In this document: positions 7,901-25,894 of the stretch, piece after piece
Layout of the letters: each line of letters begins with the position of its first letter
How positions within the stretch are numbered: position 1 is the first letter of the stretch
Virus record (IMG/VR): IMGVR_UViG_3300030119_000590
Location: 1 to 64,000 of that record
DNA: 64,000 nucleotides
Strand: one strand, 5' to 3'
Origin: a virus
The notes under the pieces: model-generated
The model's input: the letters and a program-made list of their open reading frames with translations, nothing else
Told to the model about the DNA's origin: nothing
Database searches by the model: none
Translations under genes and position numbers: made by a program

Positions 7901-10900
7901 GGAATATTATCCATACCACCTGCTACATCAGAAGTGGGTGCTCCCGGATTTGAACAAGACTCATCAGCTCCATATCCAGTTGATGTTATTGGTCCGGACG
8001 GTGATATGTACGGACACCTAACATATACTGGTATACCAACAAATAAAGGCAAACTTTACTATAAACCAGATTCTGGTCCTTATGAAGGAGAGTCTTTATA
8101 CGGTGAAATGCGTTCAAATATCTGTCAATTAAATATAGAAACAACGGATATACCCATTGTAAACTCTGATAGAAGTGTGAATTTAGATGACTCGTCATCA
8201 GATTGGGAACTCGGAATTGAAATAGAACCAGGTAGACAAAGTGACGGATACGGAAGATTTTATTTTGAATTTAATGATGGAATCCGACAATATTGTCCTG
8301 AAAAAAAACACCCACCAATATGTGTACTTGGAGCAGGAGACTATAACGTAATGCTTGTTAAGTCATATAAAGAAGAAGGAAAGTTTTCACAATATTTAAA
8401 AATGTATGTTAAAAGAGCATCGGGTGCAGACATTGTGGTAAGTTATTCAATCTTGATACCTGCAACAAAAGAATCTTTTGAAAAATTTAATTCATATAAC
8501 AAAGTCTTTTTTGGAAATTATATGTCATCGGTGTTCAAAGGAACATTGAATAAGTTAAGAATGTACAATATTGAGATTCCTGAAAACAGATTTGAAAATC
8601 ACATTCTTTTTAACCAAGCATATGATTTAGACGATCCAAGTCAAATGAGAGATTCGTTAATATTCAAAGCAAACTTTGATTATCCATATGATTTATCGTC
8701 TGTAGCAAATCCGTCTGCGTCTACCGATGAATATCCAACAGGAACCATACCAAACAATTCGTTCAGAAAAGATGCACCTAAGAATATAGAGTGTTGGAAT
8801 TTCCGTTCACGTGAGTTTCCATACGACTTCGTTGGAGAAGGAAAACGTCAATTCGCAAAACTACCAGGATTCGGAGCACAAGCATTTAGCAATAATAAAA
8901 TAAGAATTGAAACTCAGAAGGTCATTGCTCCACTAAATCCACGTGCAAGGTCAACTGAGAAGAGTGGAGATAGACTTGCGGTTGACACCAACACACTTGG
9001 AGTATTTTTTAGTCCAACTGATTTAATAAACACAGAGATTATAAGATTCTTTGGAAGTTTTGAACTCGGAGATTATATTGGTGATCCTGCGGATTTATAC
9101 AAAAGTGAATACAGAAGATACGATGAATTCAAAAAGGTATTCTACAGAGAAGGTTTTGGAAAAATTGATTGGTCTATGTATTTGAATATAATGAAAACTT
9201 ATGTGGATGCTTCGTTGTTTGAAAATATTGAAAAAGTAGTACCTGCAAGAACAAGACTAATATCAGGATTGATGGTCGAACCTAGTATATTAGAACGAAA
9301 TAAATTAAAGAGTATAGTGGTAAATCCACAAGTTCAGTCAGATTTTAAAAAACTTTCACCAGAAGAATTGGAAAGTATTAACAATCCACATGACCACGAT
9401 GGTATAACGAACAAAGCATCTAATAATCACAAAATAAATCGTTTGCAAAATATAGAGTTGTCAGGTGTTAGGTCATCTGAAAATATTGCCTCGTTTGCAA
9501 ACCAACAAATAGGACCAAACACCAAAAAAGGAGGCGTCACACTTCACACAGGTGAAACTACATATAAACGAAATTCAAGTGCAAATCAACTAGACTCTAA
9601 CCGAACTTTTAATTTTAATTATACAGGTAACTTTATAGATACATCACTTGACCAATATATGTATGGTATCTCTTCTACATACGGAGTTTATTCAGAAGGT
9701 GGAAGAATGTTTAAAGTAGAAAATACTCCAAGAGAGTTACAATTAAGACTTCCTATTAAATATGCTCTTGGTGGTGATATAGATTATGGAAACTTAACGG
9801 ATGTCATTATAAAAGTACAAGGATTCGATTCTAAGTTAGTGTTTGAGTTTTCATCTGCCAACGGAATTTTTAAATCGGGTGGATTTCTAAACAATAAGTT
9901 ATTTTTCTCAAATAGCTCAAAGACATGGTTTATTTATTGGAGTGTTATTAGATCAAAGTGGGTTCTTGTAAATGAAAACCCTACATACATGAAAGAAGAA
10001 GAAGGATTACTTACACCAAGAAAAGGGTTATTGTGGGTGAGTGATATAGCAGATGCTTGCATAGGAAAAGTTTACACATGGCCATGTCGGTTCAGTGGAA
10101 GTAAAACTGGTGGAACAGCATATTATGAAAATGATTACATAACAATTGTTGATAGTGGAATCTTACCACAGGTAGAGGTATTGAATGACAGAATAATGTC
10201 CGTGAATACATTACTTGCTCCATTTAACAGCGGTAGAATCTTTGGTTATTTAGATTGTGAAATATATGGAAGTTTTACTGGTAGATATAAAATGATGGCA
10301 ACAATAAACGGAGTTGATGTGTGGCAACCGAAAACTGGTTATTTTGAAGTTGAAAATCATTATTTTGAAAAAGACGGAGAGAAAAAGAAAATACTTATTG
10401 ATGGTCAGTTTAGTGGAAAACTTTTACGAGGTAGTCTTGGAAGTATATCACAAGATGTTAAAATCCTTGGTCGTGTGAACGGCCGTGACTATTTTGATTG
10501 CGACTCTCCGTGGGTAAGACCCGCATCAGACGATGGTAGTGTAATAAGTGACATAAATGAAATTGTTAACATTGAATCTGTTGAAGTAACAAACAACTTG
10601 ACAGAGTTCCAAGAATCTAAAGCAATAAATTATATTTCAAAGAAATTTGATTCAGTAAATTTAGTTCCTGTTCCAAATAAGTATAAAAACAAATACTCAA
10701 GTATAATTCGTTATGGTGATACTGAATCACCTTATACAGATTATTTGGTTAGAAACGAGGATATATTTCGTCACGGAGGTTCGTCCAAAATATCAGGAAA
10801 TTATACTTTATCTGTTAACCACGAAACCAAAGATACATTTACTTTTCCTGTTTTATTTGATTACCAAGTTGAGTTATCAGCAACTTTAAAAGGAAATGGA

Positions 10901-13900
10901 TTGCGTAATATTAAAGTTCTTGCGTGGACAGACTTACCTGAACAACAATCTAAATACTATAAGATAAATTTGGATCGTGGTTTAACAATAAACGTAGATG
11001 CGAATTCTCAAACTGATATAGTATTAAACATAGAAAGTGCGGGAGTAGGATACGAGTCTGATTTGTTCTACAGATTTAATAATACAGATGGATTATATAA
11101 ACGTGAGTATTCTCCTTACAACTCTGGTGAAGATTCAATTGATAATTCAAATGTTAAGTCTATTCTTGATAAACTTTATGCAGAAGATTTGGGTGAGGAA
11201 TTTATATACAATAGCATTAATATAAAAGAACATATAAAAAGAATTTTAAATCAATCATCTGAGTCCGTGTGTTATTTTATGGTAAATTTGGGTATCAATA
11301 ATCAGAGTATTTTGTTTGTTGGATATTTGAGTGAAACACATATTCCAAAAAAGTTAGTTGGTAGAAGTGAAGATCATTTACAAGGAGTAGTAACTTCAAA
11401 GGTTGCACCACAACCAAACGATATTGTATCAGGAACAAGAGTATCAACTGACGATGAAGAAATTGCATGGTCAATTTTGCCAAAATATGGATTTGGAAAA
11501 TTATCACCGGGTGGTGTTGTGCAACTTTCATCGTTAACGGCAACAAATCGGGTAGCATATGATTATGGAATTGTTGGTTTAGAACGTTTTGATTTTACTG
11601 ACAGAATTATTTACTCTGAGGAAACCTTATCGAGTCCCATTGATGTCAATATGGAAAATTTTTCATATTCATACGAACTTGAAATACTTCCGATTGATAA
11701 TACAACAACAAGAGTTCAACCAGATTCAATAGGAAACTATTTTGCAGTATTTAACTTAGAAAAATATAACTCAATTGAGATAGAAAACTTTACGGGACAA
11801 ATGGATATGTTGAATGGTTCTTATCTTGAGATTGGGACATACAATGGAAAACCTTTGTATAAAAATGAAAAAGATTTGAATGATGAGTTTCGTGTTAATA
11901 TAATTGACCAAAATTTGTCTAGAATACAACATTTAATTCCAGACGGTTATGTGGGAAGAAAAGTTAATTATATATTTTGGAGTAATATTAACAGACGTTG
12001 GATTTTGTTACATAGTAATAATTTCTTGATTGATTTTGTTAAAGAGCAAGATTTATACATTCCTATAGAATCACCGGTAAGGCATGATATATTATGGATA
12101 TATGGAAACACAGAATCCAATGCACAAAGTTTCAATACAGAAAATGGTGGTGATTTAGGTTATCATCGTTCTTTGGTATACAGAGAAACAGTTTCTGTAA
12201 GTTCAGTTATAGAAGCAGATGAAGCAAACTTTGATGAACTTATTTCTATGGAGGCACTTGGACTAGACTCTGATGAAGCAGGACTTGTATATACCTTCAG
12301 AGACACGGATACTATAAAAGTTTTTGGATTTACAGGTGCTTCGGCAGCGGCAAATGGTTTATATCGAGAACTTGAAGGAACGATGGGAACAAAACCATCG
12401 TACTTTAACGGTCGTGGTTGGCTGTTATACTGGAACGAAGATTCGTTTACATGGATCATTGCGGAATATGTTGGTATCAAAGACGAAATTCAGAAATCAC
12501 TAAGTACAGTTTATCAAAGGTTGAATCTTACTTCATTTTTCAATAAAACCTCTCCAACAAAATGGATAGCAAATTTATCAGCTGAGTTTGATTCTAGAAG
12601 AAATGACGATAATGTATTTTCGTCAGAAATAACATCGGATGTGTTTATTTCAATGGGAGGGCAAACATTACAGAGATTTTTTGACGGAATTGGTCGTTCA
12701 CGACAAACAGGTTTTGCATACTTTCCTTCGTTGAAAAAGAAAACAAAGGTAAAGTATAGTTCGGATGTAGAGTATTTCAGAGACACCATTGAGTCTAATT
12801 TAGATAAACTTGATGTTGTATCATATAACTCAACTGTGGTTGAAGGTAATTCATTTAGAATTGTACCCAATATACGTCATTTTCAAAGATATGAAGACGA
12901 TGCTCATACACAAGTCAAAAGACTTGCTTGGTGTATGACCATACGAAGAAAGAATCCAAAAATGCCTATTCCTGGTGTTTATACACGTAAGGCAGGAGGA
13001 TCATCGGTAATGCTCAGGTGGATGGCAAACGATTATGATACAATTACAGTTGATTATGATCCAGATAGAGAACTTATAGAAAAAGATGCTCTACGAGAAA
13101 CAGTTCCTGTGGGAATTTACAAAAGAGTGAATTCAAGTATCACGGGAGAATCAACAACAACTATAAGATTTAAACACTTATCAAATCAGTTTGAGTTGAA
13201 ACTTGAACCTGCCACCCAACCAAATGAGTCTGATAAATGGACAATTAGTTCACTTTCAAATGCAACTTATTCTGTATATACCCGTGATATGGTCGGACAA
13301 AATATAGAAACCGTCGCAACCAAAATTGGTTATATAAGAACCCGTGGTGAGCTTATAGAACAAAGATCGTTTGGTAAGTATATAACACGTGACGAGTTGA
13401 CATTCCCAACGGGTGATAATGCAAACAATATTTTTTACATAGGAAAGCCACCGGAATCAACAGATCCATTTGATGACAGAATACCAACCACAACAGAAGT
13501 ACCTTTTCAGTCTGGTATCGGTGAAGAAATTGCAACAGAAAATTTATATATTAAATGGGGTCATGTAATACAAGACAACATTGAATCTAACGATTGCAAA
13601 GATTTAAATTCATATCCAGCTGCTTCATATAGTTTAAAAGAAAACACCACTATAAAAGGAGGAAATACATCAAGACACGATTTGCTTGATTTAAGTAGAT
13701 CATATCCAAACGGTATAGGTGCTGAGTTGGTAATCGAAGTTTCTGGAGGCACTGGAGAAGACGAAGCATTTAATGGAATATATTGTAAACGAGAATCTAT
13801 ATCATCTAAAATTTTTGTTAATAGAGATGACACAACCAAGTATATAAAGCAAGGAGAACGTGAAGGTGATCCGGTTTATATATGTTCAATTGATTCTGCG

Positions 13901-16105
13901 TTCGGAGAGTTCGATGTATCTGTTTCTGATTTAAAAGGTGATGGTGCAACTAGAATGCGTTCATTTTATGTATTGGAAAAGTCAATAACAAAACCCACTC
14001 TTGAAAACTCTGATGAAAAAATGAGATGGGATTCAACACAACTTCCAACCATAGGTGAATATAGAAACCGAAACGATTGGAGTTCGGTTGCTCAAACAAG
14101 ACTAATTGATTCGTCTACCATTGAAGTCACTGGATGCGATATTGAAGGTGCGAATGGAGTATACAAAACAACAGGTACATTCGATTTTAGCAACAACGCA
14201 TACACATATTCCAATAAAAATAATTGGATATTTGTTTGCTATACACCACGTGATGCCAATACTGCACCAAAGTGGGTATTTACGGATACATACGAAACTC
14301 CTCTGTCAGGTGTAGTGTTTGAATCCGTAACAAGGTATGTAGGAACATCAAGAACTGATTATGATTCGGTGGATTTCTTGCAAGGTGTGTATTACAAATA
14401 TTCTTTATCTAAACACGACTCGTATTTAAATCAGACACAATTCTCGGAAGACGATTTTATATCTAATACACCTGGTGCAAGAACTTCTGTTAAAAAGTTT
14501 ATTAATATAGATACAACAAAATCGTTGACTGCGAACTATAAACTTATTCTTGGTAAGTTTGAAAACCAAACTAAAACCGAGTTGACTGTAATCGAAAATT
14601 TAAATGAATTGAAAGAAAATCTTGTAGATGATAGTGTGAGAATCGAGGATATGAATTATGATACATTTGAGTATGAAATAAATTATCCTCATTCATATAC
14701 AAACATTGATACAATACCCGTTGTAACAGAACTTGATTTTGTATCTAAAAATAATATTTATAGTCAACACGAAACTGCGATTGAATTTGAGGTGACACCC
14801 ATTTCATCTAAAATCTCAAATACCTATAATGTTGCACTTCCACTTGATATATCATATGCAGAAGAAATATTTTCAAAGGATACCTTGGAAAAAACTGAGG
14901 TCAATTTTTCATTTGATGGTGACTCGTTGGTTAATTGGAACACGAACTTCTTTGGAAAAACTGAGTCTGGAGAGCTACGTATATATGAAACTGAAGTTGC
15001 ATATAGTAAACAAATAACAATATCTAACCAAACCAAAGTGAATTCTTATTCACTTTCTGTTGATGAAGTATCGTTGGAAATGAAACTTACACTTACACCT
15101 AGAAAACGAGAAGACTATGTAGTCACTAAATTACATTCTAGAACATACCTCGATGACTTTGAGTTTGGTTTTAATGCCTTTGTAAACGAAGAAGGAACTA
15201 AGATAGAAGATTCAAAACTTATAGAAGTTTCTAAAATTATTCCATTTGACTACGAAGTAAGTCGACCAACACAACTGAGTGACTTAATAAACCTTGGAAA
15301 TGTAGGTTCTTTATACAATAAAAGAATTTTTCCAATACACCGAAGTAATTTTAGAAGAAATATAATTGGTAGGGGAGTCAACGATGTAACAACAACCATG
15401 GACCTGTCTGGAAATTTAAATTCAACGTCACCCATAATTAGAACTAGGGAGTCGGCTCAACGGATAGGTGATCCGTCAGAGATACAAGATAGTTTCTGGT
15501 TCGTTGACGATGTACCTGCCGTTTCGGTGGTAAGGGTTGAACAGGAAGATACAACACCACCGACTATGTCAGATGAAAAGAAAGAAACACTTGAGTTTTC
15601 ATATTCATTTGAGAATTCAGAAGAATTAACACCCACACCAACTCCAACTCCAACACCAACTCCCACTCTAACTACACCACCCACCCCAACCCCAACCGTT
15701 GGCAATTCCGGCCAGTATATAACCCCAACTCCCACACCAACTCCCACACCAACCCCAACTCCCACACCAACCCCAACTCCCACACCAACCCCAACTCCTA
15801 TACCAGTAGGCAGTTCAGCGGCAGAAACAAACTCCCCACTTTGTATTACAGGAACAACGGCCTTTGATAACGGCACATGGGTGTTGGGTGGAGTATATTA
15901 TAGTCATCCATACTGGACTAGTCCTGACACCAATTATTATCTTTACGCAAAGACGAGAGATGCGAACCCGCAGTGGAGAATTACCAATCGTCCTCCTGGA
16001 ACCTACACATCTTATGTGGTTGACTCTATGGCCGCAGTAATATCACCAGAACTTTCTGGATGGTCAAGTGGAATAATCATAGTGGCAGGTTCGTGTGATG
16101 AGTAA
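4943..16105 (+). CDS. Giant baseplate/tail structural protein (gp7-like position)
   Basis: A single uninterrupted 3720-residue reading frame, about 3.6 times the length of T4 gp7 (1032 residues), which is the wedge protein expected here. Visible parts: an N-terminal wedge-like region (1-560); at about 770-880 a segment resembling phage tail protein I/P2 gpI types (FLNLVGNHFDLIYTYI, then NNLPHIVNTIGTERSINALL and a cysteine-tyrosine-glycine motif); one GILS-type module at about 961-1057 shared with the 2154-residue protein; six or more copies of an NG-Y/W-W module between 585 and 3120; a Thr-Pro tract (about 3563-3622); and a C-terminal W/Y-rich domain with LCITGTTAFDNGTW. This suggests a baseplate scaffold carrying a string of small adhesion-like modules. 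The gp7 assignment rests on position and general character, not on a clear match. Confidence 0.85.
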   Translation: MANYLKYIDTESNTGDFTRAYPVESSALDLAFEKTSTKTTFGKSFKDVIEFTVYDSTGRNLLAWTIIEGLENYTTKNLYYTNYNDDTVTASVRVLDSVYPSANGNIILSPTDQLKKLNFTTGAYRIGFSFRNDIIGSTESESKLIVSEISPSRTEIKITPECLRNSTRPQDAAINFEYDNFINKRIVVSHIYHDVSSFYRDDVSFILDNTGLDFSEDFKSTFDDFEQSYEKTITTYLGVDIKSINPTHINQFISNIYSNYEKVTKLYNNVILTNYTSSFTSSDFYDEYLKCADYIISKHTKLATLSTDSVEVEFYKSAFIHFYDLDALSGIYADRFDNYFSNVINLSNNQSYPILKQTLSSQNANDAVKQQPLVLKLSEPLPFSVTVGTRFHLSNVSSSDDIIQNIIVTEEVVSTTYKLRGPNKVSLLTSSSGTKQYTSEDLTLGNEIESGISNHFNKLTSGTELSVDYSEFSNYVRFSSAKKKLDAFVYKLTQVSKLNRKKIELENEIYNLKKRIANDTIGNETGADSYTILREFDIKKTNESLSEIIDSFTEYEKFLFYTEDNFAWPRSENLVVTTNSTQKFQTVLYEGVYYEDGVYNERPLYTHQSNDWTLYWDGAEYGWVLSDAGTSKTNHWISTRPVTTTDSFITSNVFGNQTITRTTDASIEKLASSSEFSSDATPDYMPNSDNVPTERPWLSFSISYEQVIRGIKGTARSPRYIPADLKVFQKDKGYFWYLERANEAEQYDKTNDDSLGNNIPEFLVRDDSNQDFVDFLNLVGNHFDLIYTYIANMGASLKPRNNPNKGVPNELVWFIMNSLGVRFSGQDDAGDDMTSDYPTGGLSIKDRRNIIWRRILNNLPHIVNTIGTERSINALLRCYGVPDYLFKVKEYGGVKYSTSGASDESIFSFDSFDYKLNFTQDDQYISIPWHGDSYEVRTLEFETSLDDSLREENLSTEYGLLEYNISPSAIIKDQENGITSSGWIYQGILSIPPATSEVGAPGFEQDSSAPYPVDVIGPDGDMYGHLTYTGIPTNKGKLYYKPDSGPYEGESLYGEMRSNICQLNIETTDIPIVNSDRSVNLDDSSSDWELGIEIEPGRQSDGYGRFYFEFNDGIRQYCPEKKHPPICVLGAGDYNVMLVKSYKEEGKFSQYLKMYVKRASGADIVVSYSILIPATKESFEKFNSYNKVFFGNYMSSVFKGTLNKLRMYNIEIPENRFENHILFNQAYDLDDPSQMRDSLIFKANFDYPYDLSSVANPSASTDEYPTGTIPNNSFRKDAPKNIECWNFRSREFPYDFVGEGKRQFAKLPGFGAQAFSNNKIRIETQKVIAPLNPRARSTEKSGDRLAVDTNTLGVFFSPTDLINTEIIRFFGSFELGDYIGDPADLYKSEYRRYDEFKKVFYREGFGKIDWSMYLNIMKTYVDASLFENIEKVVPARTRLISGLMVEPSILERNKLKSIVVNPQVQSDFKKLSPEELESINNPHDHDGITNKASNNHKINRLQNIELSGVRSSENIASFANQQIGPNTKKGGVTLHTGETTYKRNSSANQLDSNRTFNFNYTGNFIDTSLDQYMYGISSTYGVYSEGGRMFKVENTPRELQLRLPIKYALGGDIDYGNLTDVIIKVQGFDSKLVFEFSSANGIFKSGGFLNNKLFFSNSSKTWFIYWSVIRSKWVLVNENPTYMKEEEGLLTPRKGLLWVSDIADACIGKVYTWPCRFSGSKTGGTAYYENDYITIVDSGILPQVEVLNDRIMSVNTLLAPFNSGRIFGYLDCEIYGSFTGRYKMMATINGVDVWQPKTGYFEVENHYFEKDGEKKKILIDGQFSGKLLRGSLGSISQDVKILGRVNGRDYFDCDSPWVRPASDDGSVISDINEIVNIESVEVTNNLTEFQESKAINYISKKFDSVNLVPVPNKYKNKYSSIIRYGDTESPYTDYLVRNEDIFRHGGSSKISGNYTLSVNHETKDTFTFPVLFDYQVELSATLKGNGLRNIKVLAWTDLPEQQSKYYKINLDRGLTINVDANSQTDIVLNIESAGVGYESDLFYRFNNTDGLYKREYSPYNSGEDSIDNSNVKSILDKLYAEDLGEEFIYNSINIKEHIKRILNQSSESVCYFMVNLGINNQSILFVGYLSETHIPKKLVGRSEDHLQGVVTSKVAPQPNDIVSGTRVSTDDEEIAWSILPKYGFGKLSPGGVVQLSSLTATNRVAYDYGIVGLERFDFTDRIIYSEETLSSPIDVNMENFSYSYELEILPIDNTTTRVQPDSIGNYFAVFNLEKYNSIEIENFTGQMDMLNGSYLEIGTYNGKPLYKNEKDLNDEFRVNIIDQNLSRIQHLIPDGYVGRKVNYIFWSNINRRWILLHSNNFLIDFVKEQDLYIPIESPVRHDILWIYGNTESNAQSFNTENGGDLGYHRSLVYRETVSVSSVIEADEANFDELISMEALGLDSDEAGLVYTFRDTDTIKVFGFTGASAAANGLYRELEGTMGTKPSYFNGRGWLLYWNEDSFTWIIAEYVGIKDEIQKSLSTVYQRLNLTSFFNKTSPTKWIANLSAEFDSRRNDDNVFSSEITSDVFISMGGQTLQRFFDGIGRSRQTGFAYFPSLKKKTKVKYSSDVEYFRDTIESNLDKLDVVSYNSTVVEGNSFRIVPNIRHFQRYEDDAHTQVKRLAWCMTIRRKNPKMPIPGVYTRKAGGSSVMLRWMANDYDTITVDYDPDRELIEKDALRETVPVGIYKRVNSSITGESTTTIRFKHLSNQFELKLEPATQPNESDKWTISSLSNATYSVYTRDMVGQNIETVATKIGYIRTRGELIEQRSFGKYITRDELTFPTGDNANNIFYIGKPPESTDPFDDRIPTTTEVPFQSGIGEEIATENLYIKWGHVIQDNIESNDCKDLNSYPAASYSLKENTTIKGGNTSRHDLLDLSRSYPNGIGAELVIEVSGGTGEDEAFNGIYCKRESISSKIFVNRDDTTKYIKQGEREGDPVYICSIDSAFGEFDVSVSDLKGDGATRMRSFYVLEKSITKPTLENSDEKMRWDSTQLPTIGEYRNRNDWSSVAQTRLIDSSTIEVTGCDIEGANGVYKTTGTFDFSNNAYTYSNKNNWIFVCYTPRDANTAPKWVFTDTYETPLSGVVFESVTRYVGTSRTDYDSVDFLQGVYYKYSLSKHDSYLNQTQFSEDDFISNTPGARTSVKKFINIDTTKSLTANYKLILGKFENQTKTELTVIENLNELKENLVDDSVRIEDMNYDTFEYEINYPHSYTNIDTIPVVTELDFVSKNNIYSQHETAIEFEVTPISSKISNTYNVALPLDISYAEEIFSKDTLEKTEVNFSFDGDSLVNWNTNFFGKTESGELRIYETEVAYSKQITISNQTKVNSYSLSVDEVSLEMKLTLTPRKREDYVVTKLHSRTYLDDFEFGFNAFVNEEGTKIEDSKLIEVSKIIPFDYEVSRPTQLSDLINLGNVGSLYNKRIFPIHRSNFRRNIIGRGVNDVTTTMDLSGNLNSTSPIIRTRESAQRIGDPSEIQDSFWFVDDVPAVSVVRVEQEDTTPPTMSDEKKETLEFSYSFENSEELTPTPTPTPTPTPTLTTPPTPTPTVGNSGQYITPTPTPTPTPTPTPTPTPTPTPTPTPIPVGSSAAETNSPLCITGTTAFDNGTWVLGGVYYSHPYWTSPDTNYYLYAKTRDANPQWRITNRPPGTYTSYVVDSMAAVISPELSGWSSGIIIVAGSCDE
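6695..6830 (+). repeat. NG-Y/W-W module, copy 1 of the giant baseplate protein
   Basis: Residues about 585-628 carry the pattern: glycine-tyrosine start, NERPLY, then W-T-L-Y-W and G-W-V-L. Other copies lie at about 9820-9990, 11770-12020, 12313-12475, 13730-13920 and 14120-14300. Each pairs an N-G-(I/L/V/S)-Y turn with two aromatic strands ending in a W-(I/V)-(L/I/F) segment. Copies differ strongly in DNA, so this is an old protein repeat. Confidence 0.6.
7825..8112 (+). repeat. GILS-type module shared with the 2154-residue protein
   Basis: Residues about 961-1057 contain the order N-G-I-T-S-S-x-W, GILS, PYPVDV, GHLTYTG and K-L-Y-Y. The same order occurs six times in the protein encoded at 19430-25894. 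The shared module is evidence of domain exchange between the two tail proteins. Confidence 0.75.
15629..15806 (+). repeat. Thr-Pro hexanucleotide repeat tract
   Basis: Two blocks (15629-15700 and 15721-15806) of six-base units such as CCAACT, CCCACA and CCAACC encode (Thr-Pro)n separated by a short VGNSGQYI spacer. The tract links the body of the giant protein to its last domain. Because the unit is six bases, gain or loss of units keeps the frame, so the linker length can vary. Confidence 0.9.
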
Positions 16106-16125: not shown

Positions 16126-17082
16126 ATGACAACACGACATTCAATAAAAGATAACTCTAATAATTTACGTGATGGAATTTTATACGGAGGTAGTATAGAA
16201 ACCGGAGGGAGTGATAGAAACTATAAGGACGTAGTAAGGTTTCCAAACGATGTGGGTGAAGAATCTGAAAATACCAATTCTTACATAAAAGTTGGTGGTT
16301 CTGCAATAGAAACAAACAAAGCAACAATTTCTTGTTGGATAAATCCAGTAGGAGAGTCACAGGAATCTGCGGGAATATTAACATCAACTACGCAAGATGG
16401 AAAAATTTATGGAATGGTGTTGAAAGCAAACGGCCAACAACAAAATATTGGTTACGTATGGGGAACTACTTCAGCGGAACAGGATATAGACTTTGGTGTT
16501 TCTATTCCAATTGGTGAGTGGAGTCATGTGCTACTAGTGATATACGAATCAGGAGTATCGAGGTTGTTTGTAAATAATGTATATGTCGCGACACACGACA
16601 CAGGTTTTATCAGAAAACACGCAATACTAGACAATATAGAAATCGGTAGATTTTCTGGATTAATTGACAATGTATCTTTTTATTCGGACACACTTGATTA
16701 TGGAAATGTCCAATTAAATAGTTTAGCAACACACGAAGTATCGTATGTGTACGCACAAAACAGAGAGGAGTTTGAACCAAACGATGAAGAATCTGCGATT
16801 AAAACTCAATTGGTGGATAACTTTATAGAGCAAACAAATGGAATTAGATTTTACTATCAACAATCATCAGAATATGCGGAAGCACATACAAACTATATAA
16901 ATAACACTTTAAGTGTTATGAATACAACAGGTGGTTATCTTGAAGATGTGTTAGCAAACCAATCTTCTGAGAAACAAGACGAACAAAAATTTACAGTAAT
17001 CGGTGGACCAAATGCCAACTTAAGAAGATTTGCCGATGGAAAGTTTAGAACAATACCTGGAGAGATTGTCGAACTTCAATGA
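16126..17082 (+). CDS. LamG/concanavalin A-like tail protein
   Basis: A 318-residue protein. Residues about 45-190 look like a LamG/concanavalin A-like lectin fold: ATISCWINP, GEWSHVLLVIYESGVSRLFV, then NIEIGRFSGLIDNVSFY, the usual strand order ending in a G-x-IDNV-x-(F/Y/I)Y segment. The C-terminal 120 residues are mostly helical and acidic. Such domains bind carbohydrate or build fibres in many phages. The ATG has a good ribosome site (TTAGGAG at about 16110-16116). Likely a tail-fibre or baseplate decoration protein. Confidence 0.8.
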   Translation: MTTRHSIKDNSNNLRDGILYGGSIETGGSDRNYKDVVRFPNDVGEESENTNSYIKVGGSAIETNKATISCWINPVGESQESAGILTSTTQDGKIYGMVLKANGQQQNIGYVWGTTSAEQDIDFGVSIPIGEWSHVLLVIYESGVSRLFVNNVYVATHDTGFIRKHAILDNIEIGRFSGLIDNVSFYSDTLDYGNVQLNSLATHEVSYVYAQNREEFEPNDEESAIKTQLVDNFIEQTNGIRFYYQQSSEYAEAHTNYINNTLSVMNTTGGYLEDVLANQSSEKQDEQKFTVIGGPNANLRRFADGKFRTIPGEIVELQ

Positions 17083-17157: not shown

Positions 17158-17886
17158 ATGGGATATCTAAATAATGAAACTATAACGGTCGAGGCAGTTT
17201 TAACTCGCAGAGGAAGAGAATTGCTTGCGTCCGAGAACGGACTGAATATTACTAGTTTTGCTCTGGCAGACGATGAAATTGATTATACTTTGTATGATCC
17301 AAACCATCCAGATGGGTCGCAATACTACGATGCAGCTCTTCGCAGTATGCCCATATTTGAACCTCTTACAGACGAAACACAATCTTTAAAATATAAATTG
17401 GTTACACTTCCATCTGGTACACAAAAAATTCCTGTTATTGAACTTGGACAACAAGATATTCTGTTGAGTAAAAACTATCAAGGTGTGGTTACAATATCTC
17501 CTACAACTGATCCTGTTTACAATACCACTCTTGGATACACTGCGGTTTTATCAAATAATGCAGTAGGAACACTCGAAGGCCAAGGTGTCAACGCAAGTGC
17601 ATCTGCATCTGCATCGTTATTTCTTGGTGATACATCAAGTGAAAAAGCAATAACAGCTGTTGGTTTGACATTTACATTTCGTCCAAACGCATCAATAACA
17701 AAAGATGAAACTGCACAACTTACTATTATCGGAAATGAAAGTGGTGGTTCACGTACAATTCCTGTGAGAGTATATTTAGGTGAACAACCAGAAGTAGCAG
17801 TAACAAATGCAATTACCAATGTTACCAGTGTTAGCAGCGTTAGCAGTGGTAGTGGAAGTGTTAGTAGTAGTGGAACGGCATATTAA
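17158..17886 (+). CDS. Virion structural protein, conserved type with low-complexity tail
   Basis: A 242-residue protein. The opening (MGYLNNETITVEAVLTRRGRE, about 1-21) followed by LALADDEIDY-like residues is of a type I recall in T4-like marine phages as a structural protein; no biochemical role is known to me. Residues about 140-205 form a beta-rich domain. The last 25 residues are Ser/Gly/Val-rich (VSSVSSGSGSVSSSG), a flexible end. It is followed after six bases by the next virion-type gene and forms a unit with it. Confidence 0.8.
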   Translation: MGYLNNETITVEAVLTRRGRELLASENGLNITSFALADDEIDYTLYDPNHPDGSQYYDAALRSMPIFEPLTDETQSLKYKLVTLPSGTQKIPVIELGQQDILLSKNYQGVVTISPTTDPVYNTTLGYTAVLSNNAVGTLEGQGVNASASASASLFLGDTSSEKAITAVGLTFTFRPNASITKDETAQLTIIGNESGGSRTIPVRVYLGEQPEVAVTNAITNVTSVSSVSSGSGSVSSSGTAY

Positions 17887-17892
17887 TATAAA

Positions 17893-19398
17893 ATGATATA
17901 TAAAGAAATAGAAGATGCCGATAAGGTGTTTGGTAGAACAATAAAAGTTTCAACAGGAAGTTTTTCTGATGGATTCCATTTGGATCAGTTTCATGTGGAT
18001 GAATCTAGTGGAGGTGAACTTGACACACCTCTATCAAGATATGTAGTTAACTCATCGGCAACAGAGTTAGAAGTTCTTGAAAGTATGTCGGCTGCACAAC
18101 TTGAAGACGGAGAACACGTAATACAAAAAAGTTTAGACCTTGCTTCGTACGATAATTACTATGATGAATCGGCGCAAAATTCAGATAGTACTCTTAATAT
18201 AGTCGCAACCAACAACTACCACGAAGAAAAATGGACAGATGTCTCATACGGAGATTATTATGCGAATGTTTATGATAATCCAGTTTCAGTTGGTGGTGTT
18301 TCAAATGAAAACGCAAGGACTCAAATGACAATTACATATGGCCATGCATTGGGGTATGGTTCTCGTATTGCTGGTAGTGGAGTAAAAGCAGTTAATGTTA
18401 CTAAAGCAATTTACAATCAATATAGAAACATTTTGTTAGGACCTGGTGATTCACGTTTTACTTTTCAAAAAAGTGGAAACTTATCTGGTGTAGATAAAGA
18501 CCACATTTATGTAATTAACTTTTCATCAACTGCAATGCGTGAGAAACTTGACGAAGGTAATTTGGAGTTTACATTAAGTTTGTCGCAAGGAATTAAATCT
18601 AAAAATGGTGGACTTGATGCGAATATTTCAGCAACACTAACTCTTAGAGATGATAGTAGGTTTGAGGCACAAATACTTCAACAAAGTGGTATGACCAAAG
18701 TAGGTAGAGTTTTTAATATAGTAAAGGGAACAATTGCTGATACAGAACTTTCAGATTCACAAAGATATGCCAATAAACAAAACACAGATAATGTTGGTGT
18801 TGGTGAGGGGTTTGGTTTAGTTTATCCTGACCTTGGTATAATCGTATTAAATCCTGATGCTATTTCTAACGAACTTGGGGGCAACCTACAAGAACAAATT
18901 GATGCTTTGTCAGAAGATGAGTATGTAAAAAATGTTAATAATGTGGGAAAAATGTTGTCATGGAGTGGTGTAATAAATCCAAACTCTTTACAAAGTGGAG
19001 ATTTAGTAAACGGAACAGAAAGAAATCACCAAAACTTTTTGAAATTATTTACGGCATTAAAACAAGGTGGAAACTTTAAGTGTAGAAGTTCTGAGTTTAT
19101 TCCATCCAAGCATTATTTTATTAGAGTTAGAAATACCGACTTCAATTATAGTAATAACCCAACATTCGTATATCAAAACCAAGAGGCAATGATTAAAGCA
19201 GCTCAGACTAATACTGATAAAAATTATTGGTTAGGCCGTGTTCGTTTTGATGAATTTGTAAACGACTCAAAGACTTACATCACTACAGTAGGTTTATATA
19301 ATGAGAATAATGAACTAGTAGCAGTGGCAAAACTTAGTGTGCCTGTTTTAAAGAGTTTTGATACAGAGACACTGATTAAGGTAAAACTTGATTTTTAA
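17893..19398 (+). CDS. Virion structural protein, unknown
   Basis: A 501-residue protein beginning MIYKEIEDADKVFG, close behind the previous gene. It has no catalytic motif I can see. The body alternates beta-rich segments with a conserved-looking YGHALGYGSR stretch (about residues 150-160); the C-terminal 80 residues resemble a small beta domain ending in LIKVKLDF. The C-terminus of the next large protein ends similarly (NFLVKYDT after a G-L-E-L-V-M-V-A-K-L-S segment), so both may end in a related domain. Probably a tail-fibre or baseplate-attached protein. Confidence 0.8.
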   Translation: MIYKEIEDADKVFGRTIKVSTGSFSDGFHLDQFHVDESSGGELDTPLSRYVVNSSATELEVLESMSAAQLEDGEHVIQKSLDLASYDNYYDESAQNSDSTLNIVATNNYHEEKWTDVSYGDYYANVYDNPVSVGGVSNENARTQMTITYGHALGYGSRIAGSGVKAVNVTKAIYNQYRNILLGPGDSRFTFQKSGNLSGVDKDHIYVINFSSTAMREKLDEGNLEFTLSLSQGIKSKNGGLDANISATLTLRDDSRFEAQILQQSGMTKVGRVFNIVKGTIADTELSDSQRYANKQNTDNVGVGEGFGLVYPDLGIIVLNPDAISNELGGNLQEQIDALSEDEYVKNVNNVGKMLSWSGVINPNSLQSGDLVNGTERNHQNFLKLFTALKQGGNFKCRSSEFIPSKHYFIRVRNTDFNYSNNPTFVYQNQEAMIKAAQTNTDKNYWLGRVRFDEFVNDSKTYITTVGLYNENNELVAVAKLSVPVLKSFDTETLIKVKLDF

Positions 19399-19429: not shown

Positions 19430-22400
19430 ATGATAAAGCCGTTGAAAGTTTCTGACAAATCGGTTAGGAGGTTTAAAACACACAAGTTGTGGTCGTATGA
19501 TAATATTACATCAGTTGATGATATATTACTTGAACAAGAAAACTTGGACGGACCTTTGTCATTATTCTTAGATGAAAGTACGGTGTTATCACCTGAACAA
19601 ACAAGTTCATCCACCAAATTAAAAGTAACACGTGGAAAACGATATGAACCAACAGATACTTTTTATCCCGTTGGGCATAGCTTACACGATCAAACAAAAG
19701 AACTTATAAATGGTGATGGATCGTATCAACGTGTGGTGTACAATTCAATTAAGCATTTGTTTTACAATGAGTATGGTGTTAGTACATCATTAAGTTCCAC
19801 AGGAACTAATGTAAAAAACCCATTGATGGTATTTGGTTCAGAGACAGGTAACTATATGATGAATACCCGTGCGGAAAATACCATATTTAGCACAAATAAT
19901 AACGTAGACTACGAACGACGTTCGTTGCAAGATGATATCATCGTAGTTCAGTTTGATTCATCTCAAATGGGTGAAAAAATAAAACCTGGAGACTTTAGAA
20001 TACGAGATTATAGTTCACCTTATGGAGTTCTTGAAGTTGTCGATGACGGTGCAACAAATTTAGTGATTAGCACATCGTCTTTTAATGAAATTAAGGAAGT
20101 GAGTGGTTCTTCGTTGACCGATGTAAAATCAATTAACTCTGATAGTCCAATATTTAATTTTAATGATCTTACGTTTGGATATAAAATATCTTCCGCAGGA
20201 AAATACTTTATATCGGGTCAACCGGTTATGTCAGATGCTCCAACGGAAGTAAATTCTGGTCGTGCGGTTTTGTATAAATTAAATGAAGAAACTCAGGAAT
20301 TTCAAATACTTCGTGAATTTTTTAATCCGTTTACTCAAAATGGACTTTCAACAGAAATACAAAATGATAATACCGGATTTTTGATGACAGAACTTGAAGG
20401 TATGTTGATAAACGAAGATTATTCTATAAACGATAATTTTGGTGATGCGGTTGAATTAAAGCACAATTGTTGTGTAGTTGGTTCGTCTCAATCTCATATA
20501 AGAGGTGTATGTAGTGAACTTGGAAAAACTGGTCATATATTTGTTTACGATAGAGATAAAGGTGGTGCAGACCATTGGGGTCTTGTTAATATAATTGAAG
20601 GAGAACCTGGAACTGAATTTGGTGCATCGGTATCTATAAAAGGAAAACATATGGTTGTAGGTGCACCTGGATATAACAACTCGGAGGGTGCTATATATCT
20701 TTTTGAGAAATCAGTTAGAACTGAATCACATCCGTGGAAAAGAATTTCAAACTCTTTTGATGATTATGATTGGGATGAAGAGCAAGGTGTATATGTAGGA
20801 AAACCAACTGGTGAAAAACTTGAAAGAAATAATAAATCAGTTTCTAGGTATAACATTAAGAGTTTAGTTCCCAATGCTGATAAGTTAACTCACTTTTATA
20901 TAGATTCAAGTAAGTTTCTCACGAATTTATGCACAGAGGCAAACTTAAACCAATACACAATTTCTGTGGGAAGTTCCACAAACGACCAAACAAATGGAAT
21001 TAGTGCTTCGGGTTGGAAGATGTCAGGTATTTTATCAGCATCTGGTTCAGACTCATCTGAGTCATCACTTCCGTATCCTGTTGATGTTTATGATTCTTCA
21101 GATAATTTAATTGGCAACATTATATATACTGGAAAACCAAAGGTTATGAGTTTGTACTTTTCATTTGGTGAAGATAACTTAAATTGTATAAGTGGAACGA
21201 TTCAAGGAAACTCATGTAGAATGACAGGTGGGTTGTTACAAGAACAATGTTCAGAACCAGGATTTACAGAATATAGAGTATCTTTGTCGGAGAGTGTCAG
21301 TGATCAACTAAATGGAGTAACTTCTTCTACATGGATGAAACCTGGAATATTGTCGGTGTCAGGTTCTGACACATCAACTTCGTCTGAACCATATGCAGTG
21401 GATGTATACGACTCTTCTAATTCCTTGATAGGACATATTACATATACTGGTAAACCAAAATCAATGAACTTGTATTTTAGAACATCTGATATGGATGCTT
21501 CTTGCGTTTATGGTAAGATTGAAGGAAATATCTGTATACTACCAACAGAGTTAGTTATATCCGGAACAACATCTGGTATCTGTACAGAGGACGGATATAC
21601 GGAATATGAGGTTTCACCCCAAGAGGGAATTACAGACCAAGAAGCAGGTATAATTTCATCTACATGGACTCGTCTTGGTATTTTATCATTACCAAGCACA
21701 AAGGACACTTCTCAACCCACACCAAATCCAGTGGATGTGCTTTATCAAGATGAATTATTAGGACACATTACGTTCACAGGTACTCCTGCAAGTGACAGAA
21801 TATATTTCACAGAGGGTGCAATATGTCTGTCTGGTAAAATAATAAAAGGCGAGTGCATATTGTCAGAACACCAACCATTAATAGGAAAGAAAATATCAGG
21901 TGATTTGATTGATTATTCTGTTTCAACCGAACTTGGTGTGAATGACAACATCAATGGAATTATATCTTCTGAGTGGCTATATTCTGGAATATTATCACTA
22001 CCTTACGCAGATTCTACAAATTCAAGCACACCTTATTTCATAGATGTATATGATATAGATGGTTTGTTTGTAGGACATATAACATATACAGGATTACCAG
22101 TTAGTTCTAATATATACTTTACTGACCAAGAAGGTTTTGTATTTGTGGGTACAATCGTAGGTGGTAAATGTGAATTCAAATATTTAAATGAACCACCTGA
22201 ACAACCTACTCTTGAACAACTTGAGTGTACAGAGGATGGCTTTAACACTTACAATGTTTCATCGGAGCAGATAGTAGACGATAGTGAGTGGGGAGTAAAA
22301 ACATCAACATGGGCATATACAGGTACTTTATCAATATCACACGCAGATACAAAATATGGTACTCAGTCTTATACAGTAGATGTTATTGATCAACGAAATA

Positions 22401-25400
22401 TTATGCTTGGTACACTTACCTATTATGGAAACCCAAGCAGTATGAACATTTACTTTAAACGAGATAACTCATTAGGTTGTGAGTCAGGAGTTATCGTTGA
22501 TAATGTATGTAAACTTACACCATACGATATTATTGATAAGACTGAGTTTAAAGAAACTCCATGTGATTCAATCGATGCTATTGAGATAGAAACATTTGAC
22601 GGAGAATATATAGCAACTGAAGGAACTGTTACTGGATTTCCACCACACCAATACGAGGAAGATGACAATGGAAATACATCACCTGAACATTCTATTGGTA
22701 ATATTACATGGGATTTAGTAGAAGTAATAACCGTTCCTGGATCACGAAGGTTGGGAGAGCAACTAAAGTTAACGGGTGACTTAATTTATTCAACATCACC
22801 AAGTTCACGCATTAAATATTGCAATGTGTTAAAGAAGCTACCGAAAACAACAGAGTGTGGTGTGGGTTGGAAACACACACATAATATTACAAAAAACGGA
22901 ATTTACAACTTTGACACAGATCCAATTGGTTTGGGTGACGGGTTTGAAAGAGTAAGTGCCGATGTAAATGACAATGAAGTAGTAATCAAAACTATATTCT
23001 TAAACTCTGACCCAAAATATACTTCTGGATTTGTTTATAGAGTTGATGCACCGTTGAACGAATCCTTTTCATCTTTTAATAATGAACTTATAGTTTCGGG
23101 TGGAACTTATGTTGAGGGTAGTATGATAACTCTCACACTATCAAATGGAATGCACGATGTTTACCTCGGACGAATTGATAAATCAGGCCAACTTGTAGGA
23201 AGACAATCTAGAATTAATTTGGCAATAAATCCAATACCATACAATTTAACATCTAGAAAAGATTTAGTAAAATTTCCATATGATTATGATTTTAATGTAG
23301 ACGGAAGTTTTGGAATATCACTTGATGCTAATGAAAAGTTTTTACTCATAGGTGATGCTTACGACAGAAAGTTTAATGATCCGAATAACCCAAACGCAGA
23401 GTTTGTTGCTGGTGCAGTTTATGCATTTTCTGTTGACGGTGGTAAGATTTCTTTTCTAGAAAAATTATATGCCGATGAATTAGAGGAATTCACTTATTCA
23501 AGTGAATACGGAAGAAGTGTCTCGATACAAGGAACTGATTTTCTGGTAGGAGCACCAAGTAAAGATGCAAGTGAAATATCGGTTTTAGATGGTGGTGAGA
23601 ATATTGGGGTAAAAGACTTTAGAAGAGGAACACGAAGAATTTCAGACCGAACATATGTTTCTGAGCAATTGATTTATACAAATGCAGAATGCTCTTATGT
23701 CGGTGGAGATATGCCAGATGTGGTGGTAAAAATACCAATAGATACATTGGAAGTAAATGAAAGTCTAATTTCTGAATTTATGATTACGGCCGACTTTATA
23801 AAAACTGATAAAAATAGTTTGTACACTCTACGGATACCAACAGACTATACAAAACATATTGTGTCACCTGATAAATCTGTTACTGACAATGTGTCTAAAA
23901 TAACTTCATCAACTTGGATGACAACTGGTGTTCTGTGGTTACCACCGGCAGTTACAAATGAAACTGCAACACCTACTCCGATTGATGTATACGATTCACA
24001 AAAGAACTTTCTTGGTCACATTACTTATACAGGTCAACTATCGGTAAATAAAATTTATTTTGTTGAAAATGGAACACCATATGTTGGTGAGATAGAAAAT
24101 TCTCGATGTATGTTGACAGATTATACAGAAAATCTTGGGTCGGTAACCCGTGGTGTTTATCGAGATTTGACAAAAATTGAAGATGGCAAAGTTTGGTTTT
24201 ATGTTGATGTTGATCCAGATACATTTACGCAAACAGACCGAACGTGGTCACAAGACGGAGTTGAGTTTGTTTATTATGTTGATAGAAATGCAGAAGAAGG
24301 TTCGGTTTTTTATTATAGAATTGGGGAGTCTAGTATTGATAGAAAGGCATTTGTTAAGACAAATAAATACCCATATAAAGTCAGACATCAGTTTGGAACT
24401 GCTGTATCGTTAAGTTCTGATTATATTTATGTTGGTTCTCCTGTTATGGGAGATTTTCCTGCAAATGAACTAGAAGCATTTGAAGGGTCTGACCTTGGTT
24501 TATTTGAACAATGCTCTAAGATCTATTCTTCGTATGGAGATATTGCATGGGGACGTCTATCAAACATGGATAAAGATGTTTCTGGTAAAATTTTGGCATA
24601 CGATGTTGCTTCTTTGCGTGATGACGAAAGAGTTTATGTTGGGAATGTGTTTTACAAAAATGGAATTGCAGTTATTACTAATTCCTCAGACTATTTCAAA
24701 AATATGTTTTCTGGCTCAAATGATACAGGATTTGAAGTTTCGTATCGTGGAACTCATGCAATATATGAAAATGAAATATTATGTTCAGTTGCACCTTCTG
24801 AGTTCAATGTAAGTACAAATCCAACTTCTGTTTCGTATGATGATATTGATTACGATGTAAATGGTGATACTCAATTTGACATAAAAGACTTGGCATATAT
24901 TTACCGATATATGATTGGTTCTTTGGTTGATATACAAATTGATATCGAGGAAAGCTATACTGTCCAAAAAGAAACACTTGAAACCATTTGTAGAGAGTTT
25001 TCAATTCCGTATCCATCATCAATTGACATAGAAAAAAGATTTAAAATACCAGTAGAAGTTTCGTTTGGAATGCTTGATATACGCAGAGTTAATAATGGTG
25101 TAGTGGGAAATAAACTTAGGTATGACGATGCTATTACTGTGGGAGAGTCATTAGTACTTCCATCAGGATATACACACACGGTACGACCAGTTCAGTCAAT
25201 TGAATCTATTGCAAAATTTACAGGTGTAACAGTAGATGCGATATACCAAGCCAACCCAACCGCATCTGCTTCTCCTTTATATCTAGGACAAACATTGATT
25301 ATACCAGCAGGAGGAGATTTTACACCTGGTATAAAATTCGAGGAAGGTAATAACTCTAATTGGCCAAACGATGACTTGGCATTAACTGAAACAGAAGATT

Positions 25401-25894
25401 TGATTCTTATGGATGTTCTTCTTCGTTCCACCGAAAATTCTGTAGGTGAAAACGAGTACAATAAAATACTTACGAAACTCGAGTCGTTAGAGGAACGTGG
25501 ACTACTTGATATTGATGGTGATGGTATGGTTACTGATGTAGATGCCAAATTATTAGTAAGATATTTCGTAGGAAGAACTGGAACAGATTTGACTGATGGA
25601 TTAATAAACACTTTCACAAATGGTGAAATTGCTCAAAGCAGAAATGTTGCATATCAAATATTGGAGTTTTTAGACGAACGGACTGGTAAAAATCGTGGTG
25701 TTGAAATACTTCAAGATTTCGTGGATTATCGTGAAAATGATGCAAAGGATCAACTTGGAAGTTATTTAGCACCATTTGCAACCACAATCGGTATTTATAG
25801 TGGGTTGGAACTTGTTATGGTTGCTAAATTAAGTAGACCCGTGAAGATAGTTCCTAACTATCCAATTAATTTTTTGGTGAAATATGACACTTAA
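19430..25894 (+). CDS. Giant adhesin-like tail protein: FG-GAP propeller, GILS modules, dockerin-like repeats, LysM
   Basis: A 2154-residue protein, probably a receptor-binding or fibre component. Visible parts in order: N-terminal attachment domain (1-340); FG-GAP-like blades (FGDAV at about 338, FGASVSI and MVVGAPG at about 396-412, later FGISLDA at about 1294, YGRSVSIQG and LVGAPS at about 1360, FGTAVSL at about 1655); six GILS modules (five at about 507-1029, one at about 1473-1563) inserted in the propeller; a dockerin-type calcium loop DVNGDTQFDIKDL (about 1807-1819); a LysM-like domain (YTHTVRPVQSIESIAKF to LGQTLIIPAGG, about 1914-1962); a second dockerin-type loop DIDGDGMVTDVDA (about 2027-2039). 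FG-GAP domains bind ligands and calcium, LysM binds peptidoglycan or chitin-like glycans; the role in this phage is inferred. Confidence 0.85.
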   Translation: MIKPLKVSDKSVRRFKTHKLWSYDNITSVDDILLEQENLDGPLSLFLDESTVLSPEQTSSSTKLKVTRGKRYEPTDTFYPVGHSLHDQTKELINGDGSYQRVVYNSIKHLFYNEYGVSTSLSSTGTNVKNPLMVFGSETGNYMMNTRAENTIFSTNNNVDYERRSLQDDIIVVQFDSSQMGEKIKPGDFRIRDYSSPYGVLEVVDDGATNLVISTSSFNEIKEVSGSSLTDVKSINSDSPIFNFNDLTFGYKISSAGKYFISGQPVMSDAPTEVNSGRAVLYKLNEETQEFQILREFFNPFTQNGLSTEIQNDNTGFLMTELEGMLINEDYSINDNFGDAVELKHNCCVVGSSQSHIRGVCSELGKTGHIFVYDRDKGGADHWGLVNIIEGEPGTEFGASVSIKGKHMVVGAPGYNNSEGAIYLFEKSVRTESHPWKRISNSFDDYDWDEEQGVYVGKPTGEKLERNNKSVSRYNIKSLVPNADKLTHFYIDSSKFLTNLCTEANLNQYTISVGSSTNDQTNGISASGWKMSGILSASGSDSSESSLPYPVDVYDSSDNLIGNIIYTGKPKVMSLYFSFGEDNLNCISGTIQGNSCRMTGGLLQEQCSEPGFTEYRVSLSESVSDQLNGVTSSTWMKPGILSVSGSDTSTSSEPYAVDVYDSSNSLIGHITYTGKPKSMNLYFRTSDMDASCVYGKIEGNICILPTELVISGTTSGICTEDGYTEYEVSPQEGITDQEAGIISSTWTRLGILSLPSTKDTSQPTPNPVDVLYQDELLGHITFTGTPASDRIYFTEGAICLSGKIIKGECILSEHQPLIGKKISGDLIDYSVSTELGVNDNINGIISSEWLYSGILSLPYADSTNSSTPYFIDVYDIDGLFVGHITYTGLPVSSNIYFTDQEGFVFVGTIVGGKCEFKYLNEPPEQPTLEQLECTEDGFNTYNVSSEQIVDDSEWGVKTSTWAYTGTLSISHADTKYGTQSYTVDVIDQRNIMLGTLTYYGNPSSMNIYFKRDNSLGCESGVIVDNVCKLTPYDIIDKTEFKETPCDSIDAIEIETFDGEYIATEGTVTGFPPHQYEEDDNGNTSPEHSIGNITWDLVEVITVPGSRRLGEQLKLTGDLIYSTSPSSRIKYCNVLKKLPKTTECGVGWKHTHNITKNGIYNFDTDPIGLGDGFERVSADVNDNEVVIKTIFLNSDPKYTSGFVYRVDAPLNESFSSFNNELIVSGGTYVEGSMITLTLSNGMHDVYLGRIDKSGQLVGRQSRINLAINPIPYNLTSRKDLVKFPYDYDFNVDGSFGISLDANEKFLLIGDAYDRKFNDPNNPNAEFVAGAVYAFSVDGGKISFLEKLYADELEEFTYSSEYGRSVSIQGTDFLVGAPSKDASEISVLDGGENIGVKDFRRGTRRISDRTYVSEQLIYTNAECSYVGGDMPDVVVKIPIDTLEVNESLISEFMITADFIKTDKNSLYTLRIPTDYTKHIVSPDKSVTDNVSKITSSTWMTTGVLWLPPAVTNETATPTPIDVYDSQKNFLGHITYTGQLSVNKIYFVENGTPYVGEIENSRCMLTDYTENLGSVTRGVYRDLTKIEDGKVWFYVDVDPDTFTQTDRTWSQDGVEFVYYVDRNAEEGSVFYYRIGESSIDRKAFVKTNKYPYKVRHQFGTAVSLSSDYIYVGSPVMGDFPANELEAFEGSDLGLFEQCSKIYSSYGDIAWGRLSNMDKDVSGKILAYDVASLRDDERVYVGNVFYKNGIAVITNSSDYFKNMFSGSNDTGFEVSYRGTHAIYENEILCSVAPSEFNVSTNPTSVSYDDIDYDVNGDTQFDIKDLAYIYRYMIGSLVDIQIDIEESYTVQKETLETICREFSIPYPSSIDIEKRFKIPVEVSFGMLDIRRVNNGVVGNKLRYDDAITVGESLVLPSGYTHTVRPVQSIESIAKFTGVTVDAIYQANPTASASPLYLGQTLIIPAGGDFTPGIKFEEGNNSNWPNDDLALTETEDLILMDVLLRSTENSVGENEYNKILTKLESLEERGLLDIDGDGMVTDVDAKLLVRYFVGRTGTDLTDGLINTFTNGEIAQSRNVAYQILEFLDERTGKNRGVEILQDFVDYRENDAKDQLGSYLAPFATTIGIYSGLELVMVAKLSRPVKIVPNYPINFLVKYDT
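20950..22515 (+). repeat. Five GILS-type modules in tandem
   Basis: Five units of roughly 90 residues (starting near 20950, 21266, 21600, 21910 and 22243) share the order V-S-x5-D-x3-G-(I/V), SS-x-W, G-I-L-S, P-Y-x-V-D-V, G-H-I-T-Y-T-G and a final cysteine. A sixth copy is at about 23848-24118. DNA identity between copies is only partial. Confidence 0.85.
23848..24118 (+). repeat. Sixth GILS-type module, separated from the others
   Basis: Same order as the tandem copies: SS-T-W, GVLWLP, P-I-D-V-Y-D, GHITYTG, K-I-Y-F and a final cysteine. It lies between two FG-GAP-like segments, some 440 residues after the fifth copy. Confidence 0.8.

Follow-up and report, generated by a model that had tools for sequence, protein, structure and literature searches.

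The closest parallel to the protein described here, as far as its way of working is concerned, is offered by the evolved Dit proteins (evoDits), exemplified by Gp28 of Deep-Purple and by lactobacillus phage J-1 (PMC9128512): these are structural tail proteins in which both ends are conserved and a carbohydrate-binding module, placed mid-chain, aids adsorption, an arrangement and role proposed for the present protein as well. A part of the protein resembles another well-known module, the cellulosomal type I dockerin (PF00404; structures 4fl4, 5nrm, 2ccl, and 2vn6), which consists of two calcium-loop-plus-helix repeats with the same signature. In the literature, phage dockerins appear in one template-based mention (PMC5967307), a count that covers open-access papers and is not proof of novelty. 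The virus itself shares a T4-like capsid and terminase with RM378 and the Far-T4 phages (PMC4360716); the main text of the Far-T4 paper mentions neither FG-GAP and dockerin domains nor tail fibres.

The gene studied here lies in a window of 64,000 nt, the whole stretch of DNA analyzed, which belongs to a 77,352-base viral record. It occupies positions 19430–25894 of the + strand, as do all of its parts given below, and its stop-free translation is 2154 aa long. Elsewhere, the record encodes a T4-like terminase, portal, capsid, sheath, and tube and a T4 baseplate protein; by terminase and capsid, the closest named phages are Mel-JY01, immuto, LR756508, and RM378, and the source virus is, judged by its sequence, an uncultured T4-like phage related to RM378, of the “Far-T4” kind (PMC4360716). 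The gene block of the adhesin contains gp25-like (487–882) and gp6-like (885–2843) genes and also encodes a separate LamG protein (Laminin_G_3 in Pfam; 16126–17082, + strand). The order of a gene at 17158, a short paralogue, the adhesin, RuvC, primase, SbcD, and SbcC is conserved in most of 50 related loci among the matches listed, as far as the contigs reach. The baseplate block also holds a 3720-aa protein (4943–16105) that lacks a Pfam match; its best tblastn match per related locus is mostly 25–47% identical, and some loci, whose retrieved flanks may end short of it, gave no match. At 2843–4336, there is a sub-threshold match to a disaggregatase-related repeat domain (3.5e-7, below the curated Pfam cut-off). 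Among 84,980 species genomes of bacteria and archaea, the sole match was a Flavobacteriales MAG contig (L164), possibly a phage contig; a host assignment was set aside, as this contig and the Flavobacterium, Rhodothermus, and Microcystis phages point in conflicting directions.

The initial annotation had reported FG-GAP blades, dockerin-like calcium loops, and a LysM domain in a single protein, and both Pfam and the uninterrupted reading frame bear this out. FG-GAP_2 matches the protein in four stretches (E 4.4e-18, 65.7 bits); LysM matches at aa 1916–1959 (E 3.8e-7 and 30.4 bits with the whole protein, 36 bits with the C-terminal piece), above the curated PF01476 cut-off of 20.9 bits; and Dockerin_1 matches at aa 2027–2046 (E 2.1e-4 with the whole protein, and 25.0 bits against a cut-off of 22.9 with the C-terminal piece as the sole query). 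The two calcium loops, DVNGDTQFDIKD (aa 1809–1820) and DIDGDGMVTDVD (aa 2027–2038), start 218 aa apart and have 206 residues between them; their separation, noticed earlier, therefore stands, with a measured figure of 206 in place of about 195. Could such loops be accidental? The pattern D-hyd-[DN]-x-[DN]-x3-[DNST]-x2-D occurs exactly twice in the protein as compared to 0.022 times expected per shuffle of the same protein, and both loops recur at corresponding positions in relatives; thus, the two loops are not a product of chance. Loop 1 fits the PF00404 ligand rule (D or N at positions 1, 3, 5, 9, and 12, then a helix) throughout, and loop 2, with T at position 9, was counted as a member; unlike in the family definition, the two repeats are not adjacent.

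What carries these modules? The protein is best described as a small tail-protein core with two large inserts, a reading that follows from the motifs and the hairpin common to its relatives and from the paralogue encoded upstream. The N-terminal core part (aa ~1–215, end approximate; 19430–20074) was delimited by BLASTP to the N-termini of L016, L017, and L059 and, by eye, resembles a 304-aa minimal relative (P0006); comparison with relatives defines the segment that precedes site 2 (aa 1738–1798, VGNVFYKNG ... EFNVSTNP; 24641–24823) and the C-terminal segment (aa 2106–2154, TTIGIY ... KLSRP; 25745–25891). Used as a query, the C-terminal part matches proteins of Microcystis phage Mel-JY01 (591 aa) and of a huge phage (304 aa), and tblastn with these two adds Rhodothermus phage RM378 and Flavobacterium phage immuto. 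The core relatives all have an EFNxSxNP-like motif and end in a TT(I/V)G(L/I)Y...L.A hairpin; most of them have the VGNxFYxNG segment as well. Other T4-like phages encode the core alone (304 aa) or the core with LamG: the Mel-JY01 protein has the same core with site 1 filled by a lectin-type module, but LamG replaces the propeller and both dockerin and LysM are missing, whereas the RM378 protein has the C-terminal part of the core without the FG-GAP and dockerin inserts. The paralogue directly upstream (17893–19398, + strand) is a short version of the core that lacks inserts and has the same ending as the focal protein, although the direct BLASTP match between the two is short; the pair is present in 93 of 108 dockerin-bearing loci among the matches listed, duplicates included. 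A match of the core to the Bas63 connector (9mt4_L) was structurally weak (Z 2.1) and was set aside. Neither Pfam nor PHROGs reveals Dit homology in the focal protein or in its relatives that share the core; unlike an evoDit, the protein, which belongs to a myovirus, has no Dit match and carries an FG-GAP propeller, unnamed repeats, a dockerin, and LysM at two sites, and the likeness is one of working only.

The insert at site 1 probably forms a seven-bladed FG-GAP propeller. Blades 2 (aa 330–379; 20417–20566), 3 (aa 390–431; 20597–20722), 6 (aa 1352–1401; 23483–23632), and 7 (aa ~1649–1725; 24374–24604) are detected by both Pfam and a home-made profile. The remaining three are weak in sequence: blade 1 (aa ~246–292; 20165–20305) is placed by a blade at the same position in L007, L008, and L016; the likely blade 4 (aa ~1105–1145; 22742–22864) is degenerate and was recognized by eye and from L010 and L016; and blade 5 (aa ~1291–1340; 23300–23449) is found with the home-made profile. 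The same profile detects about seven blades, one very weak, in the 1049-aa relative L016. Five Cys-containing repeats of ~100 residues (aa 501–1035; 20930–22534) are located between blades 3 and 4, and a sixth copy (aa 1468–1568; 23831–24133) separates blade 6 from blade 7. Of the dockerin-class proteins that were searched, only the focal protein, L002, and L007 have these repeats, and searches of Pfam and PDB sequences returned no relatives. In proteins that have a site-1 insert without the dockerin insert, site 1 holds LamG in six of seven cases, one of them below the cut-off. Three relatives (L019, L023, and L025) of at least 2959 aa have a far larger site-1 insert, composed mostly of unnamed sequence.

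Site 2 holds the dockerin, split in two. Half 1, with loop DVNGDTQFDIKD and its helix (aa 1809–1831; 24854–24922), recurs in relatives; it is followed by a divergent first LysM with an internal insertion, recognized in the predicted structure (aa ~1842–1912; 24953–25165), by the canonical LysM, supported by Pfam and the predicted structure (aa 1916–1959; 25175–25306), and by half 2, with loop DIDGDGMVTDVD and its helix, supported by Pfam and relatives (aa ~2025–2050; 25502–25579). A lone PHROGs match to an endolysin covers the LysM region and was discarded as explained by the shared LysM. Each half is a loop followed by a helix with an L-x-R/K-Y signature; all 25 of the 25 members scanned have a Pfam Dockerin_1 match (best 5.4e-11), and a family profile run against PDB sequences finds cellulosomal dockerins first, above calmodulin. 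The distance from EFNxSxNP to TTIGLY grows from 19–55 aa in members without the insert to 169–215 aa in those that have the dockerin pair but no LysM and 295–326 aa in LysM members.

Which came first, the split or the LysM? In the initial annotation, the residues that separate the loops include LysM. LysM is not the cause of the split: among the matches listed, it is absent from 46 of the 51 distinct dockerin-class relatives, in which the loops are nevertheless about 70–105 aa apart; most LysM-free relatives have a start-to-start spacing of 84–100 aa. LysM is found in five of the 51 distinct sequences (the focal protein, L002, L007, L008, and L009), a count among the matches listed and not an unbiased frequency. 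In a tree of these 51 sequences, made from the matches listed with most LysM columns left out, the dockerin pair is present on both sides, and the LysM members are confined to a section of one side. Because the split is seen in LysM-free relatives and LysM is limited to one part of the tree, the split is older, with the LysM pair added later in one lineage. One or two changes suffice: the best tree has two (one insertion and one loss, or two insertions), and 42% of bootstrap trees have one. The separation of the loops even in LysM-free relatives had been overlooked earlier, as had the core at both protein ends, the six ~100-residue repeats, and the second, divergent LysM. The calcium ligands are not equally constant: again among the matches listed, 50 of 51 relatives retain D1 of loop 2 and 50 of 51 its D12, and for loop 1 the figure is 44 of 51 for each of these residues. 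The LysM lineage has no Gly at position 6 of loop 1, and in six relatives (L108, L129, L131, L133, L141, and L162) loop 1 has lost calcium ligands and loop 2 is kept; binding of two calcium ions is therefore not essential in the family.

Structure prediction was applied to the focal C-terminal part (pLDDT 65, pTM 0.40) and to L014, a LysM-free relative (pLDDT 67, pTM 0.51; alignment of 51 sequences); both models are of moderate confidence. In the focal model, segment 182–225 has the E-H-H-E order of the beta-alpha-alpha-beta LysM fold, and VIA-align ranks 1–17 are all LysM-containing proteins (Z 5.1 for the best match, with 49 residues aligned at 1.4 A), so the LysM assignment withstood a check of its fold. 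Since LysM filled the focal match list, pairing of the dockerin halves was examined on L014. Most blocks that hold the halves have a pLDDT of 82–90 in this model, and cellulosomal dockerins take the first four places among its structural matches: 4fl4_J (Z 3.9, 65/66 residues, 2.8 A, model range 73–227), 5nrm_B (Z 3.9, 66/66 residues), 2ccl_B (Z 3.6, 61/62 residues), and 2vn6_B (Z 3.3, 63/64 residues). A Z of 3.9 is modest; the alignments span model residues 71–73 to 199–228 and thus use both halves. At E <= 0.001, Foldseek matched neither model in PDB, nor the L014 model in BFVD. The L014 model thus supports packing of both halves into one dockerin-like unit; that the loops fold together, a point raised earlier for checking, is predicted for L014 and carried over from it to the focal protein. 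The family would resemble a cellulosomal dockerin in this predicted packing and differ from it in that the halves start 84–228 residues apart, with insertions between them.

Substitution rates set the modules apart. Relative to L002, dN is 0.06–0.08 in the core segments around site 2 and 0.09–0.12 in the dockerin halves, but LysM reaches 0.32 and the repeats 0.29–0.43; dS is high or saturated. By this measure, the dockerin unit evolves like the structural core and unlike a receptor-binding tip. The flanks tell a different story from the adhesin: from RuvC on, the DNA of L010 is 86.7% identical to the focal record over 6.5 kb and that of L002 82.0%, yet the adhesins are 44% and 68% identical to the focal protein, respectively. 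It is this reversal, with L010 closer in its flank but more distant in its adhesin, that underlies the cassette reading: such discordance is what would be expected of an exchanged host-recognition cassette. The LamG gene has also diverged between phages with near-identical flanks. Against L010, identity breaks sharply at about 26447, with 86.7% from RuvC onward and a diverged adhesin side, as after recombination.

What, then, does the dockerin do? The obvious guess, that it anchors the adhesin or the phage by docking to a cohesin-like partner, either a virion component or one on the host, is quite improbable. The loops with their L-x-R/K-Y helix, the near-complete dockerin match of the L014 model, and the high conservation of the halves, as a binding surface would show, speak in its favor, but the halves lie far apart and a long insert might block the binding face, and the cohesin partner, a search for which had been suggested earlier, did not emerge: PF00963 has no match in 16 viral records (its own and 15 related), which are possibly fragments and in which a divergent cohesin could be missed. 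A more elaborate version, in which a dockerin-cohesin-type contact, split to carry the LysM loop, plugs exchangeable adhesins into a virion or host partner, is very improbable; if true, it would amount to a cellulosome-like plug in a virus.

At the other extreme, the loops could be independent, of the EF-hand or thrombospondin type 3 kind, and form no joint unit. The large and variable spacing (84–228 residues start to start) and the loss of loop 1 in a subgroup that retains loop 2 would fit, but the loop-plus-helix with its dockerin signature, the rank of dockerins above calmodulin for the family profile, alignments in which both halves together cover four dockerins almost completely, and the presence of the pair on either side of the tree of 51 sequences make this unlikely; the profile ranking and the L014 matches also argue against ordinary thrombospondin/EF-type loops, the outcome that had been named as contrary to a dockerin. 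It is also doubtful that the protein is a structural tail protein whose inserts serve mostly assembly or stability while another protein, e.g., the LamG protein (16126–17082), recognizes the host: the core and the dockerin halves do evolve slowly and the LamG gene is nearby, but propeller, LamG, and LysM are typical binding modules, and phages whose flanking genes are near-identical differ strongly in the adhesin, as they also do in the LamG gene.

The reading that we favor, and consider fairly probable, is a virion tail adhesin made of a core with two sockets, a calcium clasp, and exchangeable sugar-binding inserts; the domains, the position in the baseplate/tail block, and the cassette-like divergence strongly support the original proposal of a tail adhesin with both calcium loops and glycan-binding modules. 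The anatomy, homology, insertion order, conserved gene order, and cassette-like divergence are products of the computation; the protein families and the gene position suggest the virion location, calcium binding, glycan binding, and role in adsorption. In the favored model, a small baseplate-associated tail core would offer two loop sites as sockets. The propeller and the six Cys-containing repeats at site 1 probably make up the outer, host-facing body. At site 2, the dockerin halves would fold into one calcium-stabilized clasp despite their distance in the chain, serving as a structural element and not for cohesin docking; the chain between them would act as a presentation loop, into which the LysM pair was inserted in the focal lineage and probably adds affinity for GlcNAc-containing surface glycans. 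By analogy, the adhesin may work like an evolved Dit, probably aiding attachment of the virus to its host cell.

A putative modular adhesin of this type is widespread in uncultured T4-like phages, and its fixed core, combined with inserts open to exchange, could account for changes in the sugars that these phages target. Its dockerin, with halves split open as a socket and apparently without a cohesin, evolves slowly, and these halves may provide a test of what a dockerin does outside cellulosomes.
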